64,000 bases of DNA from Bacteroidota bacterium (GTDB taxonomy: Bacteria; Bacteroidota; Bacteroidia; NS11-12g; UBA955). A program made the position numbers and the translations under genes. The stretch's first letter is position 1. Each line of letters starts with the position of its first letter. Of this stretch, positions 22,004 through 57,218 are shown piece after piece. Where the stretch lies: NCBI GenBank assembly GCA_963169345.1, contig CAUJCT010000048.1, positions 1 to 64,000 of the forward strand, given 5' to 3'. The notes under the pieces are model-generated. The model worked only from the letters and a program-made list of their open reading frames with translations. It ran no database searches and was not told the origin of the DNA.

Positions 22004-22010
22004 ATGTATA

Positions 22011-22395
22011 ATTTTTTTAATCCTCTTTACCCTGCTAGGGTGTCGGAAATTAAAATAATTTCCGATCATCCATTTCCATTCAAAAAGTTTTCTTTATCAC
22101 TTATTAAAAATTGTGACGGATTAGATAAAGTGCACTAGGAAAATTGATTTAAATAATGGATATGAAATAAGGAGTAATTTTTTTAATTGTATTCACCCTG
22201 CTAGGGTATCTGGAATTAAAATAATTTCCGACCATCCAATTCTATTCAAAAAGTTTTCTTTATCCCTCATTAAAAATTGTGATGGATTAGATAAAGTGCA
22301 CTAGGAAAATTGATTTAAATAATGGATATGAAATAAGGAGTAATTTTTTTAATTGTATTCACCCTGCTAGGGTATCGGAAATTAAAAAAAATAAA
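22011..22395 (+). repeat. Tandem hairpin-repeat array A (three cores, 166-bp period)
   Basis: Fills most of the gap between atpG and the RAYT gene. Three identical cores ACCCTGCTAGGGT at 22029-22041, 22195-22207 and 22361-22373 are exactly 166 bp apart. Each has a T tract on the left and GGAATTAAAA-type sequence on the right; copy 1 adds a second perfect palindrome, TCGGAAATTA-AAA-TAATTTCCGA (22043-22065). The two complete units carry a box GATTAGATAAAGTGCACTA whose ATAAA starts 90 nt from the core centre (22125 and 22291). The third copy is cut short and runs into the RAYT terminator. No coding potential is visible. Confidence 0.9.
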
Positions 22396-22415
22396 AAAGC
22401 CTCCCCGAGCTTTAA

Positions 22416-22472
22416 CAAAAAAAAAGCCTGAATCAAAAGAAATATTGTCTACTTCGTTGATTCAGACTTTTT
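22416..22472 (-). terminator. Intrinsic terminator of the RAYT gene
   Basis: On the minus strand AGTCTGAATCAA and TTGATTCAGGCT pair over 12 positions around a 20-nt loop and run into nine T residues. It lies about 75 nt after the RAYT stop. Confidence 0.85.
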
Positions 22473-22492
22473 AATTATAAATAAATTGATTA

Positions 22493-22507
22493 TAACCTCG
22501 AAGGTTA
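22493..22507. repeat. Palindrome TAACCTCGAAGGTTA downstream of RAYT
   Basis: Perfect 6-bp stem with a CGA loop, the same size class as the other hairpin cores (stem plus 3-nt loop), between the RAYT stop and its terminator. T-rich sequence lies left and A-rich sequence right. It may be another core variant of the same family. Confidence 0.5.
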
Positions 22508-22544
22508 CATTAAAATTTAATCTGATGAAGACCTAAGCTAATTT

Positions 22545-23177
22545 TCAATAATCCCAATCTTCACCAGCTGGTCGATTTAAGTGAAATTCCATCATATTTT
22601 CCAGACCATTAAATGCCTGCAAAATCTCAGATTGAACAATGAAACCATCTCTTCCGAATTTAAAATCCAAAAAAGATGACCAATGCCAATCTTCATATCT
22701 GGCAACAAAATTATGATGCACAGGGTTATAATGAATGTATCTCACAGAATTCAATAAATAACCCAGACTATCAATTTCAAATACTTTATAACTCTTTTGA
22801 AATAAATTGCCTTTACGCTTAGTCATAAGGTTAAATGATTGAGCATAACTGTTAAATAAATTTGAAAACTGCTGATTCACATGATAAAATGGATCTATCG
22901 CTTTTAGTTTTAATAAAGATTTTTGATGCTTTGTCATAGCCAACAGTTTTTGAACTTCAAAATCTTCCATCAGTTTGAGTCTTATGTCTTGTTCTTCATG
23001 GATTTTCACAAGCAGATGTATGTGGTTAGGCATTAAACAATAAGCGTGAATTCTGGCTACTGGTGCGAGCTTTACAACCGCTTTCTGAAGAAATAAATTA
23101 TAATGGGCGGGGTCTTCAAATAAATTATCCCAACCATTAGCACGACTCACCACATGATAAAATTTTCCATGATTCAT
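22545..23177 (-). CDS. REP-associated tyrosine transposase (RAYT, Y1 HUH family)
   Basis: 210-aa single-strand DNA transposase of the IS200-like Y1 superfamily. The HUH motif is HIH in YCLMPNHIHLLVKI at residues 52-54. The probable catalytic tyrosine is Y111 in NLFNSYAQSFNLMTKRKGNL, and the RAYT-type tail YIHYNPVHHNFV and WHWSSF is present. RAYTs nick and rejoin REP hairpins and are single-copy domesticated transposases. Here hairpin repeats flank the gene on both sides in inverted orientation, and its leader shares the unit structure of arrays elsewhere in the window. The ORF is intact with its own terminator, so it is likely functional. ATG gives MNHGKFYHVVSRANGWDNLF, the standard N-terminus. 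Confidence 0.92.
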   Translation of the reverse strand: MNHGKFYHVVSRANGWDNLFEDPAHYNLFLQKAVVKLAPVARIHAYCLMPNHIHLLVKIHEEQDIRLKLMEDFEVQKLLAMTKHQKSLLKLKAIDPFYHVNQQFSNLFNSYAQSFNLMTKRKGNLFQKSYKVFEIDSLGYLLNSVRYIHYNPVHHNFVARYEDWHWSSFLDFKFGRDGFIVQSEILQAFNGLENMMEFHLNRPAGEDWDY

Positions 23178-23197
23178 TCGCTAAAACTAATAATGCG

Positions 23198-23335
23198 AAA
23201 TGATATAAAATAGTTCACTTTATCGAATCTAACCTTATTTTTTGCAAACACCTTCCTTTTTTTTCCTAATTGAAAATGTTCGGAAATAATTTATTTAATT
23301 TGAAACACCCTAGCAGGGTATAAATCGTTAAAAAA
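23198..23335 (-). repeat. Hairpin-repeat unit upstream of RAYT (core E4)
   Basis: Core ACCCTAGCAGGGT at 23307-23319, which is the reverse complement of the array A core. The box read on the minus strand is GATTCGATAAAGTGAACTA (23211-23229), differing from the array A box at two positions. Its ATAAA starts exactly 90 nt from the core centre, as in array A. The unit forms the 5' leader of the RAYT gene on one side, and its A tract touches the start codon of the divergent T9SS gene on the other. Confidence 0.85.
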
Positions 23336-24421
23336 ATGAAAAATCTCCTTACAATATTCCTTTCATGTCTGGTTTCTCAGGCTTTTTCACAGATTATTTT
23401 AGAATCTGCACATGTCATCCCAACCGGAAGACAATACATCATGGCAACTGATAATAAATCGCAAAAATTAGCACCTGCCGGACCTAATCAAAACTGGAAT
23501 TATGCCTCTCTAAACAGCTCAAAGAAAGACACCACAAGAACAGGCATGCCTTTTTGGTACAAAGGTTTTTCTAATTTCCCTCAAAGCAACTACGCCACAA
23601 TCAACAGCACGGATAATAATACGGTGAATTTCTATGAACTTAATGACAATGCTTTTTACAATCATGGTGTATATGCATCAACTGATACTTCACTGAACAT
23701 CGTTAAAATGAAAACCCAAATTTTCCAGTTCCCTGGCCATTTTCAAGATGCTTTTAACGAATCTGATACAATTTTTGGATTATCTCTGGAACTTGGCTTC
23801 GACCCAGATACCGCCGGGCCAATGCCGTTTCTGGATTCTCTGCGTATCTCCACCAGATTTGACAGATTAGTTGAACTAAACGGTTGGGGTAAATTAACTA
23901 CTCCTATTGGAACTTTTGATGCTCTGCGACAAAATACCCGAAATATCATTTCTCAGTTTGTTATGATATACTCTAACGGCAATTGGATTTCAGCACCAAA
24001 ATCTGTTATCGATTACTTCGGTTTATTTATCCCTCAGCCTGATACTGTTCACAATGTTATTTTCATGACCAATAGCGGCGCTTATGGAGCACCCCTGCTG
24101 ACTTACAGCAATAGAAATAAAGATACATCTGCTACGATGAAATGGTTGTTTCAAACTCCTACTAAAAGCTCAGTTGCCAGCTCTAATACTTTCGAATTGA
24201 ATATTTATCCTAATCCATGCAGTGAACATCTTAAACTTGAAATTCCTGGCCTGACTGCACATTATAAAATTGTCAATGTACTGGGACAGGTATTTATAGA
24301 AGGGGATTTCCAGGACAATACAACAGTCGATATTCAGGATTTATCTGAAGGTATTTATTATGTTCAGATTGAATCAGAAAGTGGTACTTTGCTGACCAGG
24401 AAAATAATAGTTACAAATTAA
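23336..24421 (+). CDS. T9SS-exported protein of unknown function
   Basis: 361-aa secreted protein: signal peptide MKNLLTIFLSCLVSQAFSQ, an unassigned beta-rich region (20-280), and a T9SS type A sorting domain from NTFELNIYPNPCSEHLKLEI to the end (GIYYVQIESESG). The N-terminal part gives no family I recognise. The start ATG is joined to the A tract of a hairpin repeat (GTTAAAAAAATG), so its 5' UTR is formed by the repeat, with no clear ribosome site other than the A tract. It ends 2 nt from the convergent L,D-transpeptidase-like gene. Confidence 0.8.
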   Translation: MKNLLTIFLSCLVSQAFSQIILESAHVIPTGRQYIMATDNKSQKLAPAGPNQNWNYASLNSSKKDTTRTGMPFWYKGFSNFPQSNYATINSTDNNTVNFYELNDNAFYNHGVYASTDTSLNIVKMKTQIFQFPGHFQDAFNESDTIFGLSLELGFDPDTAGPMPFLDSLRISTRFDRLVELNGWGKLTTPIGTFDALRQNTRNIISQFVMIYSNGNWISAPKSVIDYFGLFIPQPDTVHNVIFMTNSGAYGAPLLTYSNRNKDTSATMKWLFQTPTKSSVASSNTFELNIYPNPCSEHLKLEIPGLTAHYKIVNVLGQVFIEGDFQDNTTVDIQDLSEGIYYVQIESESGTLLTRKIIVTN

Positions 24422-24423
24422 TC

Positions 24424-25227
24424 TCAGATTTTACTTGCAAACAGAGCGTCAAATCTGTTAGCAGATGACATCTTCAGATAACTTTTGTTGGGATAATAGG
24501 CGAAGAGACAAGTACCATTGGCTATTACCGAACTAAGTTCGTCTATCACATCCATTGAAACAGCTGGACAACCCAAACTTCTACCAAGTCGCTTGTTTTG
24601 CTTTATGAAATCGTAGCTAACATAATCAGCGCCATGAATAACAATTCCTCTGTCCATTGCATTGCTGTTAAATTTACGTTCAAGTCCCTGCATTTTAATA
24701 CTTCTTTCGTGCTTGCCATTGTAAATTTCTCCGGTTACAAAGAAACCCAGACTAGTCTGAAATGAGTTTGTAACATTTGAGAATTTTCTGGCATATTCTT
24801 CACCAGAATTTCTACCATGAGCAACTAACTCATGAAACAAGACTTTCATTTTACCCAAATCAACTACCCATAATCTTTTGACATTTGAGGATAATGAATA
24901 ATCGATAAAAGTTAGAATGTCTTTCTTGGCCAACAAGCCTTGAGCGGCATAATGAGCATAGCCTTTTAAAGCCATTTCAAACATTCGCTTAGTCGGGCGG
25001 TTCGATGAGTTAAATAACTGATTATAAACCGTATCACAATAGGTTCTAAATCTTAAGGAAGAAGTGTAGAAATACTCATACACTTGATTGTCACACACAT
25101 TGTCACTGGCGTTAGTTGCCACATTTTCAGTTGCATTTGCTTTACCACCTTCTCCACTGTCCGGAAAAGTGAACGCTACTAAGCAAAAAATACCAAAAAT
25201 AGCTGATAATGAGTTTTTTACGCGCAT
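24424..25227 (-). CDS. Murein L,D-transpeptidase catalytic domain protein
   Basis: 267-aa exported protein of the YkuD_2 type, common in Bacteroidota. The N-terminus is a signal peptide. The catalytic region (about 110-250) has RGIVIHGADYVS with the conserved His, and RSLGCPAVS with the putative nucleophilic Cys. Such proteins are predicted to make or edit 3-3 crosslinks in peptidoglycan; activity is inferred. A -7 box TATATTTG lies 10 nt before the ATG, so the leader is very short. It shares no operon with neighbours. Confidence 0.85.
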   Translation of the reverse strand: MRVKNSLSAIFGIFCLVAFTFPDSGEGGKANATENVATNASDNVCDNQVYEYFYTSSLRFRTYCDTVYNQLFNSSNRPTKRMFEMALKGYAHYAAQGLLAKKDILTFIDYSLSSNVKRLWVVDLGKMKVLFHELVAHGRNSGEEYARKFSNVTNSFQTSLGFFVTGEIYNGKHERSIKMQGLERKFNSNAMDRGIVIHGADYVSYDFIKQNKRLGRSLGCPAVSMDVIDELSSVIANGTCLFAYYPNKSYLKMSSANRFDALFASKI

Positions 25228-35053: not shown

Positions 35054-35109
35054 AAATCCCGACTGCTAAATATTGGAGGTGCGAAGGTAGTATAAAACTT
35101 TAAAAGTAA

Positions 35110-35244
35110 ATTGTCAAGATACGTTTTGTGAACAGGAATTAATTTTTATTGAAAACAGCAGTTTTTTTTATAAAGGATGAAGAGAGTTTCAGAATTATTT
35201 TAATTTCCAACACCCTGGCAGGGTATTTTAAATTAAAATAATTC
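35110..35244 (-). repeat. Single hairpin-repeat unit with 53-bp extended palindrome (core E5)
   Basis: Core ACCCTGGCAGGGT at 35212-35224. It is enclosed by a perfect 15-bp inverted repeat, GAATTATTTTAATTT (35192-35206) and AAATTAAAATAATTC (35230-35244). A diverged box (minus strand CACAAAACGTATCTTGAC) begins about 89 nt from the core centre. It lies between the divergent mfd and vWA genes, where a terminator would make no sense. Confidence 0.8.
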
Positions 35245-35290
35245 ATCCATTCCCCCGTTTACCTTATTTCAACATTCAGTATTTAACTCT

Positions 35291-39608: not shown

Positions 39609-39640
39609 CAGTAAAAAAAACATTTAGAGATTTAGAAAGA

Positions 39641-39775
39641 AATTTCCAAGTCCTTCTTATCGAATCTTACTTTATTTTTTTCGAAACAACGTGAATTCTT
39701 TTTAAAAGAAAATTTAAGACTTGCATTTTTTTTAACTTCAAACACCCTGGCAGGGTGGAGTAAATTAAAAAAATT
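39641..39775 (-). repeat. Single hairpin-repeat unit (core E6) between E1 and recJ
   Basis: Core CACCCTGGCAGGGTG at 39743-39757 with eight T residues on the left and seven A residues on the right. On the plus strand the box TTATCGAATCTTAC matches the RAYT-leader unit TTATCGAATCTAAC, and its reference base (39660) is exactly 90 nt from the core centre. The unit fills half of the 263-bp gap; a recJ promoter box follows. Confidence 0.85.
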
Positions 39776-39855
39776 CAAAACCCTCCCAATTGGTCAGCCT
39801 ATTCCCTCTCCTGGCCATTCTGTATAATTGTGGAAATTCCTTAGCTTTTTTTTCC

Positions 39856-56470: not shown

Positions 56471-56476
56471 AATATA

Positions 56477-57057
56477 TTTTTTTTAATCTCCTATACACTG
56501 CTAGGGTGGTTGAAATTAAAATAATTATCCCGATCCATCTTTCCTTTAAAAAATATTCTGCATTACCCGATAAAAATTAGTGTTGTTTCAATAAAACGCG
56601 TTTGGCTTTTTGATTTAAAAACACGAATTGGTTAGAGTTTGATTTTTTTACTCTCAGATACACTGCTAGGGTGGTTGAAATTAAAATAATTATCCCGACC
56701 CATCTTTCCTTTAAAAAATATTCTGCATTACCCAATAAAAACTAGTGTTGTTTCAATAAAACGCGCTTGACTTTTTAATTTAAAAACACGAATAGGTTAG
56801 AGTTGGATTTTTTTAATCTCAGATACACTGCTAGGGTGTTTGAAATTAAAATAATTATCCCGGCGCATCTTTCCTTTAAAAAATATTCAGCATAACCCAA
56901 TAAAAATTAGTGTAGTTTCAATAAAACGCGCTTGACTTTTTAATTTAAAAACACGAATTGGTTAGAGTTGGATTTTTTTAATCCGTTTATCCGCCTCAGG
57001 CGGATGTTTGAAATTAAAATAATTATTTACTTCCCTTTCATTTCCGATTTTAAAACG
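56477..57057 (+). repeat. Tandem hairpin-repeat array B (four cores, 165-166-bp period)
   Basis: Occupies most of the 748-bp gap after nuoN. Cores ACACTGCTAGGGT lie at 56495-56507, 56660-56672 and 56825-56837; a fourth, ATCCGCCTCAGGCGGAT, is at 56989-57005 with the same flanks (T7AATC left, GTTTGAAATTAAAATAATT right). Each of the first three units has TTTCAATAAAACGCGCTTG or a near variant with ATAAA starting exactly 90 nt from the core centre (56591, 56756, 56921). Spacers resemble array A only weakly, but phase and boxes agree. No gene is visible. Confidence 0.9.
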
Positions 57058-57060
57058 AAT

Positions 57061-57191
57061 ATTCCAAGTCTGCTTTATTGAATATAAACCTATTTTTTTC
57101 TAAGAAGCATAAAATTTTGTGAATGGAATTACTTGAACCGGAGTTTTTTTAATTTTTGACACCCTAGCAGGGTGTTGATTATTAAAAAAAA
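57061..57191 (-). repeat. Inverted hairpin-repeat unit closing array B (core E11)
   Basis: Core ACACCCTAGCAGGGTGT (7-bp stem) at 57159-57175, enclosed by TTTTTTTAAT and ATTAAAAAAA. Its orientation is opposite to the four cores before it, but it stays in phase, 170 bp from the last. The box CTTTATTGAATATAAACC at 57073-57090 matches the RAYT-leader unit, 89 nt from the core centre. TTCCAAGTC just left of it is shared with the 39.7-kb unit. Confidence 0.85.
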
Positions 57192-57218
57192 TAAATTCCT
57201 CCCCTGAATCCCCAATTC

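Follow-up and report, generated by a model that had tools for sequence, protein, structure and literature searches.

The locus that is examined here raises the question of whether a RAYT transposase has spread the hairpin repeat by which it is framed. It is located in a stretch of 64,000 nucleotides, referred to as the window, from a Bacteroidota genome of 3,629,957 bases (59 contigs, 99.9% complete). The first-pass annotation of the window had described an intact Y1/HUH protein between inverted copies of a dispersed hairpin, and had proposed that this RAYT spread the repeat. Our reading is that this is quite probably a REP-RAYT (REPtron-like) system of Bacteroidota with an atypical, non-GTAG repeat, the cleavage and mobilisation of which we infer. 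The gene in question is the following:

22545-23177, minus strand: RAYT-A, a TnpA-REP-like HUH-Y1 transposase of 210 aa (HuH at 52-54, Y147 in YIHYNP, WSS tail motif)

The open reading frame of RAYT-A is unbroken, and its translation has HIH at residues 52-54, as had been described; the catalytic tyrosine, which had been placed near residue 111, is instead Y147 of the YIHYNP motif, which is invariant among the aligned homologues together with the HIH. Y111 is likewise invariant, but is located in a helix of the predicted model. Pfam Y1_Tnp matches RAYT-A above its cut-off (29.4 bits, cut-off 23), and the NCBIfam model REP_Tyr_transpos (REP-associated tyrosine transposase) matches residues 3-167 with 63.7 bits, below its cut-off of 80. 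The sole PDB chain retrieved by a profile of ten homologues is 4ER8, the E. coli TnpAREP (E=1.4e-6); the same structure, containing TnpAREP and a REP hairpin, is the top Foldseek match of the AlphaFold model (mean pLDDT 88; E=6.4e-8), ranked before the transposases of IS200, IS608 and ISDra2. By its HuH motif and its single predicted catalytic tyrosine, located in a modelled Y1 fold, RAYT-A is a RAYT / TnpA-REP. In E. coli, GTAG is read by residues W94, Q95, E100, H101 and R104 (PMC6006769), the counterparts of which, in the alignment to 4ER8, are F126, Q127, V132, F133 and D136, i.e. only the glutamine (Q95 = Q127) is retained among the five; the replacement of most of these residues is consistent with a repeat without GTAG. 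RAYT-A is present in one copy in the 3.63-Mb genome and forms the longest branch of the homologue tree, without secure placement; the samples searched contained no close orthologue above ~42% identity.

The repeat that surrounds RAYT-A is referred to as family A. Its exact core, ACCCTAGCAGGGT, occurs at 42 sites genome-wide, compared with 0 for the reversed control pattern, and the window contains 12 core rows versus 0.38 expected from shuffles. The cores that had been reported are present both at the RAYT locus (22029, 22195 and 22361 on the minus strand, 23307 on the plus strand) and at the recurrences at 35.2, 39.7 and 56.5-57.2 kb (35212; 39744; 56495, 56660 and 56825 on the minus strand, with one mismatch; 57161 on the plus strand). 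The alignment of the copies has revealed that the bare core is just the tip of a longer hairpin, H, which consists of TTTTTTTAAT or TTATTTTAAT, a 7-nt internal-loop strand, ACCCT-RGC-AGGGT, 7 nt and ATTAAAATAA; this interrupted, A/T-armed hairpin is terminal in a longer unit (U+H), the U part of which contains conserved blocks, e.g. ACTTTATTGAAAC. The unit of 166 bp that had been described is valid at the RAYT locus, while the consensus is ~171 bp, comprising U (~120 bp) plus H. When folded as single-stranded DNA, single H oligonucleotides are much more stable than their shuffled versions (z -6.3 to -3.0). The stem columns of family A are nearly invariant, with covariation giving no support either way, and RNAalifold yields no consensus pair for the family, so that the model of H (R1) is one of sequence only. 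GT[AG]G at the 5' foot of H is present neither in the alignment of 37 copies nor in the consensus of 80 units. The units that are located in the window, downstream and upstream of RAYT-A and beyond, are the following:

22008-22174, minus strand: third downstream unit, core 22029-22041, adjoining the atpG terminator (nhmmer E=3.1e-37)
22171-22340, minus strand: second downstream unit, core 22195-22207 (nhmmer E=6.7e-37)
22337-22505, minus strand: RAYT-proximal downstream unit, core 22361-22373 (nhmmer hmm 5-173, E=1.3e-23)
23193-23345, plus strand: unit U+H upstream of RAYT-A, inverted relative to the downstream units (nhmmer hmm 21-173, E=8.6e-22)
35096-35253, plus strand: solitary unit, core variant ACCCTGGCAGGGT (core match, unit HMM)
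39622-39784, plus strand: solitary unit, core variant ACCCTGGCAGGGT (core match, unit HMM)
56473-56965, minus strand: three-unit array, core ACCCTAGCAGTGT (core match, unit HMM)
56990-57004, no strand assigned: H with its core swapped for another hairpin, TCCGCCTCAGGCGGA (sequence)
57035-57201, plus strand: unit opposed tail-to-tail to the array at 56473-56965, with no RAYT between them (unit HMM)

Genome-wide, a search with the unit profile HMM yields 80 units, which are grouped in 39 clusters and correspond to about 38 loci, as the RAYT locus is counted twice; all of these units are intergenic, except for overlaps with short spurious ORFs. Some are solitary, and others form head-to-tail arrays of two to four or tail-to-tail dimers (H'U'-UH). 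Many contig ends are located near family A units, partly through an insertion sequence at the arrays, and the copy number is therefore probably underestimated; contigs that end at a few hundred bases from such a unit are C2, C15, C32, C34, C43, C50, C51 and C57. The genes beside the units are diverse and the orientation of the units is mixed. The H end is often directed toward a gene that starts at a distance of 30-150 bp, and divergently oriented genes seem to be frequent at the unit sites, unlike what a pure 3'-end preference would give. The values of GC skew, from which strand bias would be read, are too noisy on short contigs, and the right-arm types of last and internal units differ with p = 0.07, from which site-specific joining is not claimed.

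At the RAYT locus, the gene is located between tail-to-tail units in the order H'U'-RAYT-UH (22337-22505 on the minus strand and 23193-23345 on the plus strand), its ORF being separated from them by 41 bp downstream and 15 bp upstream. The upstream unit has its hairpin core at 23307-23319, and the right arm of this hairpin extends over the start codon of the gene that begins at 23336; the diverged U of the unit at 22337-22505 takes in the terminator-like region of the RAYT. The two relatives whose atpG is most similar (86-87% identical) have the orthologue of the next gene 226 and 99 bp after atpG, with that of the gene at 24424 coming next; in two further relatives atpG and the next gene are likewise adjacent, at about 120 bp. 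Neither a RAYT nor units are present between the two genes in these relatives, and because the site is empty there, the H-to-H segment is an insertion relative to those genomes; the interval to which the first-pass annotation had drawn attention, 22011-23335, is almost exactly this missing segment.

The absence of the 1.3-kb segment from relatives, and the close fit of the RAYT ORF between inverted units, would also be expected if H'U'-RAYT-UH were an IS-like autonomous element, of the TIRtron type that has been described (PMC3733652), inserted whole after atpG, with the dimers and single units as its deletion derivatives; inverted dimers that lack a RAYT do occur at three loci (C20, C30 and 56.8-57.2 kb of the window). 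We regard this as very improbable: RAYT-A is present in a single copy, the second RAYT of the same genome, introduced below, lacks a comparable bracket of inverted units, and the spacers of the dimers, by inspection, are without evident similarity to the RAYT flanks, on which ground the derivation of the RAYT-less dimers by deletion has been rejected.

The reading that we prefer, with the RAYT as the spreader of the repeat, draws on the comparison with other genomes. A count of the hairpins in relatives with and without the RAYT had been suggested as a check: the sequence model of H has matches in two of the 70 genomes of the family, source genome included, with ~77 places in the source genome and weak matches in one of the 69 others. 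This other genome, G015, has a small number of matches to H (lowest E 8e-8) and contains two RAYT homologues; no core was found near either gene, for which reason a link between its A-like hairpins and one of its RAYTs has been rejected, and we treat it as a partial exception to the pairing of repeat and enzyme. The source genome contains a second RAYT, RAYT-B (C34:26229-26840; L081, L094), which is 35% identical to RAYT-A and groups in the tree with the two RAYTs of G015 (support 100/93). RAYT-B is flanked by a repeat of its own, family B (TTCAACCTG-NN-AGGTTGA), which has 40 distinct places in the genome, compared with 0 for the control pattern; its unit has ACTTTATTGAAAC and a T-tract in common with family A.

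Beyond the family, we have compared the best 80 of 433 homologues from named genomes, nearly all of them Bacteroidota. A repeat common to the 350 bp upstream and the 350 bp downstream of the gene is present in 47 of these 80 (about 59%), compared with 3/72 and 2/72 (5/144) when the test was moved elsewhere in the same loci; the other 33 have no shared flanking repeat at the threshold used. Most of the shared repeats are palindromes, for which AACCT..AGGTT-NNNN-AACCT..AGGTT is a frequent form; a copy is also located inside the gene in 17 of the same 80 loci. The palindrome that flanks the gene of Chryseobacterium sp. ZHDP1 occurs at 29 dispersed places, where its stem exhibits paired (compensatory) changes: CTCATAGG/CCTATGAG, CTCACAGG/CCTGTGAG and CTTATAGG/CCTATAAG. 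The wider homologue set has mostly NHFH, with YIHNNP being the most frequent tyrosine motif and 79 the median HuH-Y spacing. Since H is absent from most relatives, RAYT-B is paired with family B, and the homologues are flanked by repeats more often than the controls, it is very likely from these sequences, i.e. from the second pair and the 80 relatives, that RAYTs of this kind spread such repeats; the proposal that RAYT-A spread family A is, on the same grounds, upheld as the best inference.

The same comparisons bear on two other explanations, both of which we consider improbable. In the first, the units are MITE-like and were spread by another recombinase, e.g. an IS110-like element, the RAYT having merely landed among them: such an element joins the family A arrays at fixed positions, the unit is long and has a conserved non-hairpin part (the 120 bp of U are larger than any REP needs, which counts against the REP-RAYT reading), and the A-like hairpins of G015 are located away from its RAYTs; on the other hand, the ends of the IS have no sequence in common with the unit ends, the IS interrupts the arrays and does not bound them, and the pairing is repeated with different sequences, both in RAYT-B with family B and in 47 of the 80 homologues. 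In the second, the units are kept for a host function, as a regulatory, RNA or protein binding site, and multiply by tandem duplication, with a domesticated RAYT being incidental. The direction of the H ends and the frequent divergent pairs agree with this, as do the common head-to-tail arrays and the single-copy state of the RAYTs, which is expected of domesticated genes (PMC6006769); against it are the same-genus genomes without any units, the diversity of the neighbouring genes and the mixed orientation, and a host function is in any case compatible with RAYT-driven spread and not opposed to it.

Returning to the RAYT as the spreader of the repeat, its binding, cutting and strand transfer at the hairpin would most likely proceed as in TnpAREP (PMC8266576), by analogy. 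RAYT-A would recognise the folded, single-stranded tip hairpin ACCCT-RGC-AGGGT, carried on the T/A arms with the 7-nt internal loop, mainly through stem and loop and not through a GT[AG]G guide; it would nick near the tip hairpin through Y147, retain the 5' end in a phosphotyrosine linkage and join it elsewhere, thereby copying U-H units to sites between genes. The growth of the head-to-tail arrays may be due to this same reaction or to unequal recombination.

In five units, the core is replaced by the hairpin TCCGCCTSAGGCGGA or a variant: at 56990-57004 of the window, and at ~7.57 kb of L263, ~10.1 kb of L268, ~9.85 kb of L276 and ~14.7 kb of L254. In three of the five, the swapped core directly follows ACCCTAG; exact TCCGCCTSAGGCGGA hairpins number five genome-wide, three of which are located inside core-swapped units. 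One further hairpin is broken in its loop (ACCCTAG|TTCCTTG), close to an IS left end (C36:~42020, L245). Four altered units, i.e. three core swaps and the broken hairpin, thus have an exact break at ACCCTAG|. The loop reads CT[AG]G, an echo of GT[AG]G, and taken together with the four breaks this is a hint, of a speculative kind. A bolder proposal, that RAYT-A reads the interrupted T/A-armed hairpin by the CT[AG]G loop motif, which would replace the GTAG foot, mobilises the whole 171-bp unit and swaps tips at ACCCTAG|, as a modular hairpin-swapping element between an IS and a domesticated RAYT, seems rather unlikely to us.

With regard to known systems, the earlier statement that the repeat does not fit any recognised REP class holds for the GTAG REPs, but atypical repeats beside Bacteroidetes RAYTs have been reported (PMC6006769): subclass 2.6 of the TnpA-Y1 proteins (Quentin 2018) is dominated by Bacteroidetes, and its genes have on their flanks 'atypical secondary structures' that lack GT[AG]G and are also present at other places in the genome; in subclass 2.4 repeats are inserted inside the gene. 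Compared via the published motifs, our system resembles subclass 2.6 (Bertels group 5), with which it shares the Bacteroidetes host, the RAYT core, a long HuH-Y spacing and flanking structures without GT[AG]G that are copied elsewhere. The motifs of this subclass are NH[LIV]H, YIH[QN]NP, W-Q and an SS tail, with a median HuH-Y of 82 (PMC6006769); NHIH and WSS of RAYT-A fit, whereas YIHYNP and F-Q differ from YIH[QN]NP and W-Q, and the spacing is ~92. The 171-bp unit with its T/A-armed, interrupted hairpin, the head-to-tail arrays, the inverted dimers, the core swaps and the array-targeting IS are new relative to subclass 2.6. RAYT-A shares with the E. coli REP-RAYT (REPtron; 4ER8, PMC8266576) the fold, the catalytic motif, the single gene and the dispersed intergenic hairpins of its own that flank it, but has no GTAG tag, has most GTAG-reading residues replaced, and has a unit of 171 bp versus 20-40 bp. 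De Nocera et al. 2013 (PMC3733652) described RAYT-like genes that are flanked by long inverted repeats (TIRYT / TIRtron), dispersed copies of which are likewise single, dimeric or clustered; unlike these, the GGGGWSAS motif is not seen here, the repeats end in a defined hairpin, and the head-to-tail arrays have a fixed period. HUH-Y1 chemistry and recognition of single-stranded DNA hairpins would be expected in common with IS200/IS605, from which RAYT-A differs in its single copy and its RAYT-type class 2 motifs (NHxH and YIHxNP, not DH[VI]H and Y[IV]ENQ). The system falls within an already known kind, the RAYTs with atypical or long inverted repeats (PMC6006769, PMC3733652), while no description of the 171-bp unit, its arrays, inverted dimers and core swaps, or of two parallel pairs, was found in the literature searched. 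The biochemistry of RAYTs is based on proteobacterial GTAG repeats; with two pairs in one genome and dozens elsewhere, a group of Bacteroidota that lacks GTAG is a natural experiment that bears on how RAYTs read hairpins, on the choice of the cleavage site and on whether domesticated transposases still spread repeats.

Lastly, we mention additional elements next to the repeats. An IS110-like element is located at array junctions (L243-L247, L114, L123, L124), with left end TCGTATGTTTGAAAAATC and right end GAAAGCAACACAGAATCT: all five left ends follow CCCTAAATCC or CCCTTAAATCC, four of them beside an intact or broken unit, and the three right ends that have sequence beyond them are located directly before U. 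Its assignment to IS110 has been rejected, as the only fragment, of 51 aa, is below the Pfam cut-off, and the one clear IS110 transposase of the genome belongs to a different element. REP-targeting insertion sequences have been described (PMC1525189), to which the IS at the array junctions is a parallel. A third Y1 transposase gene, L031 (C50:16596-16940), has three GCCCGACGCGTCGGGC palindromes on its downstream side.
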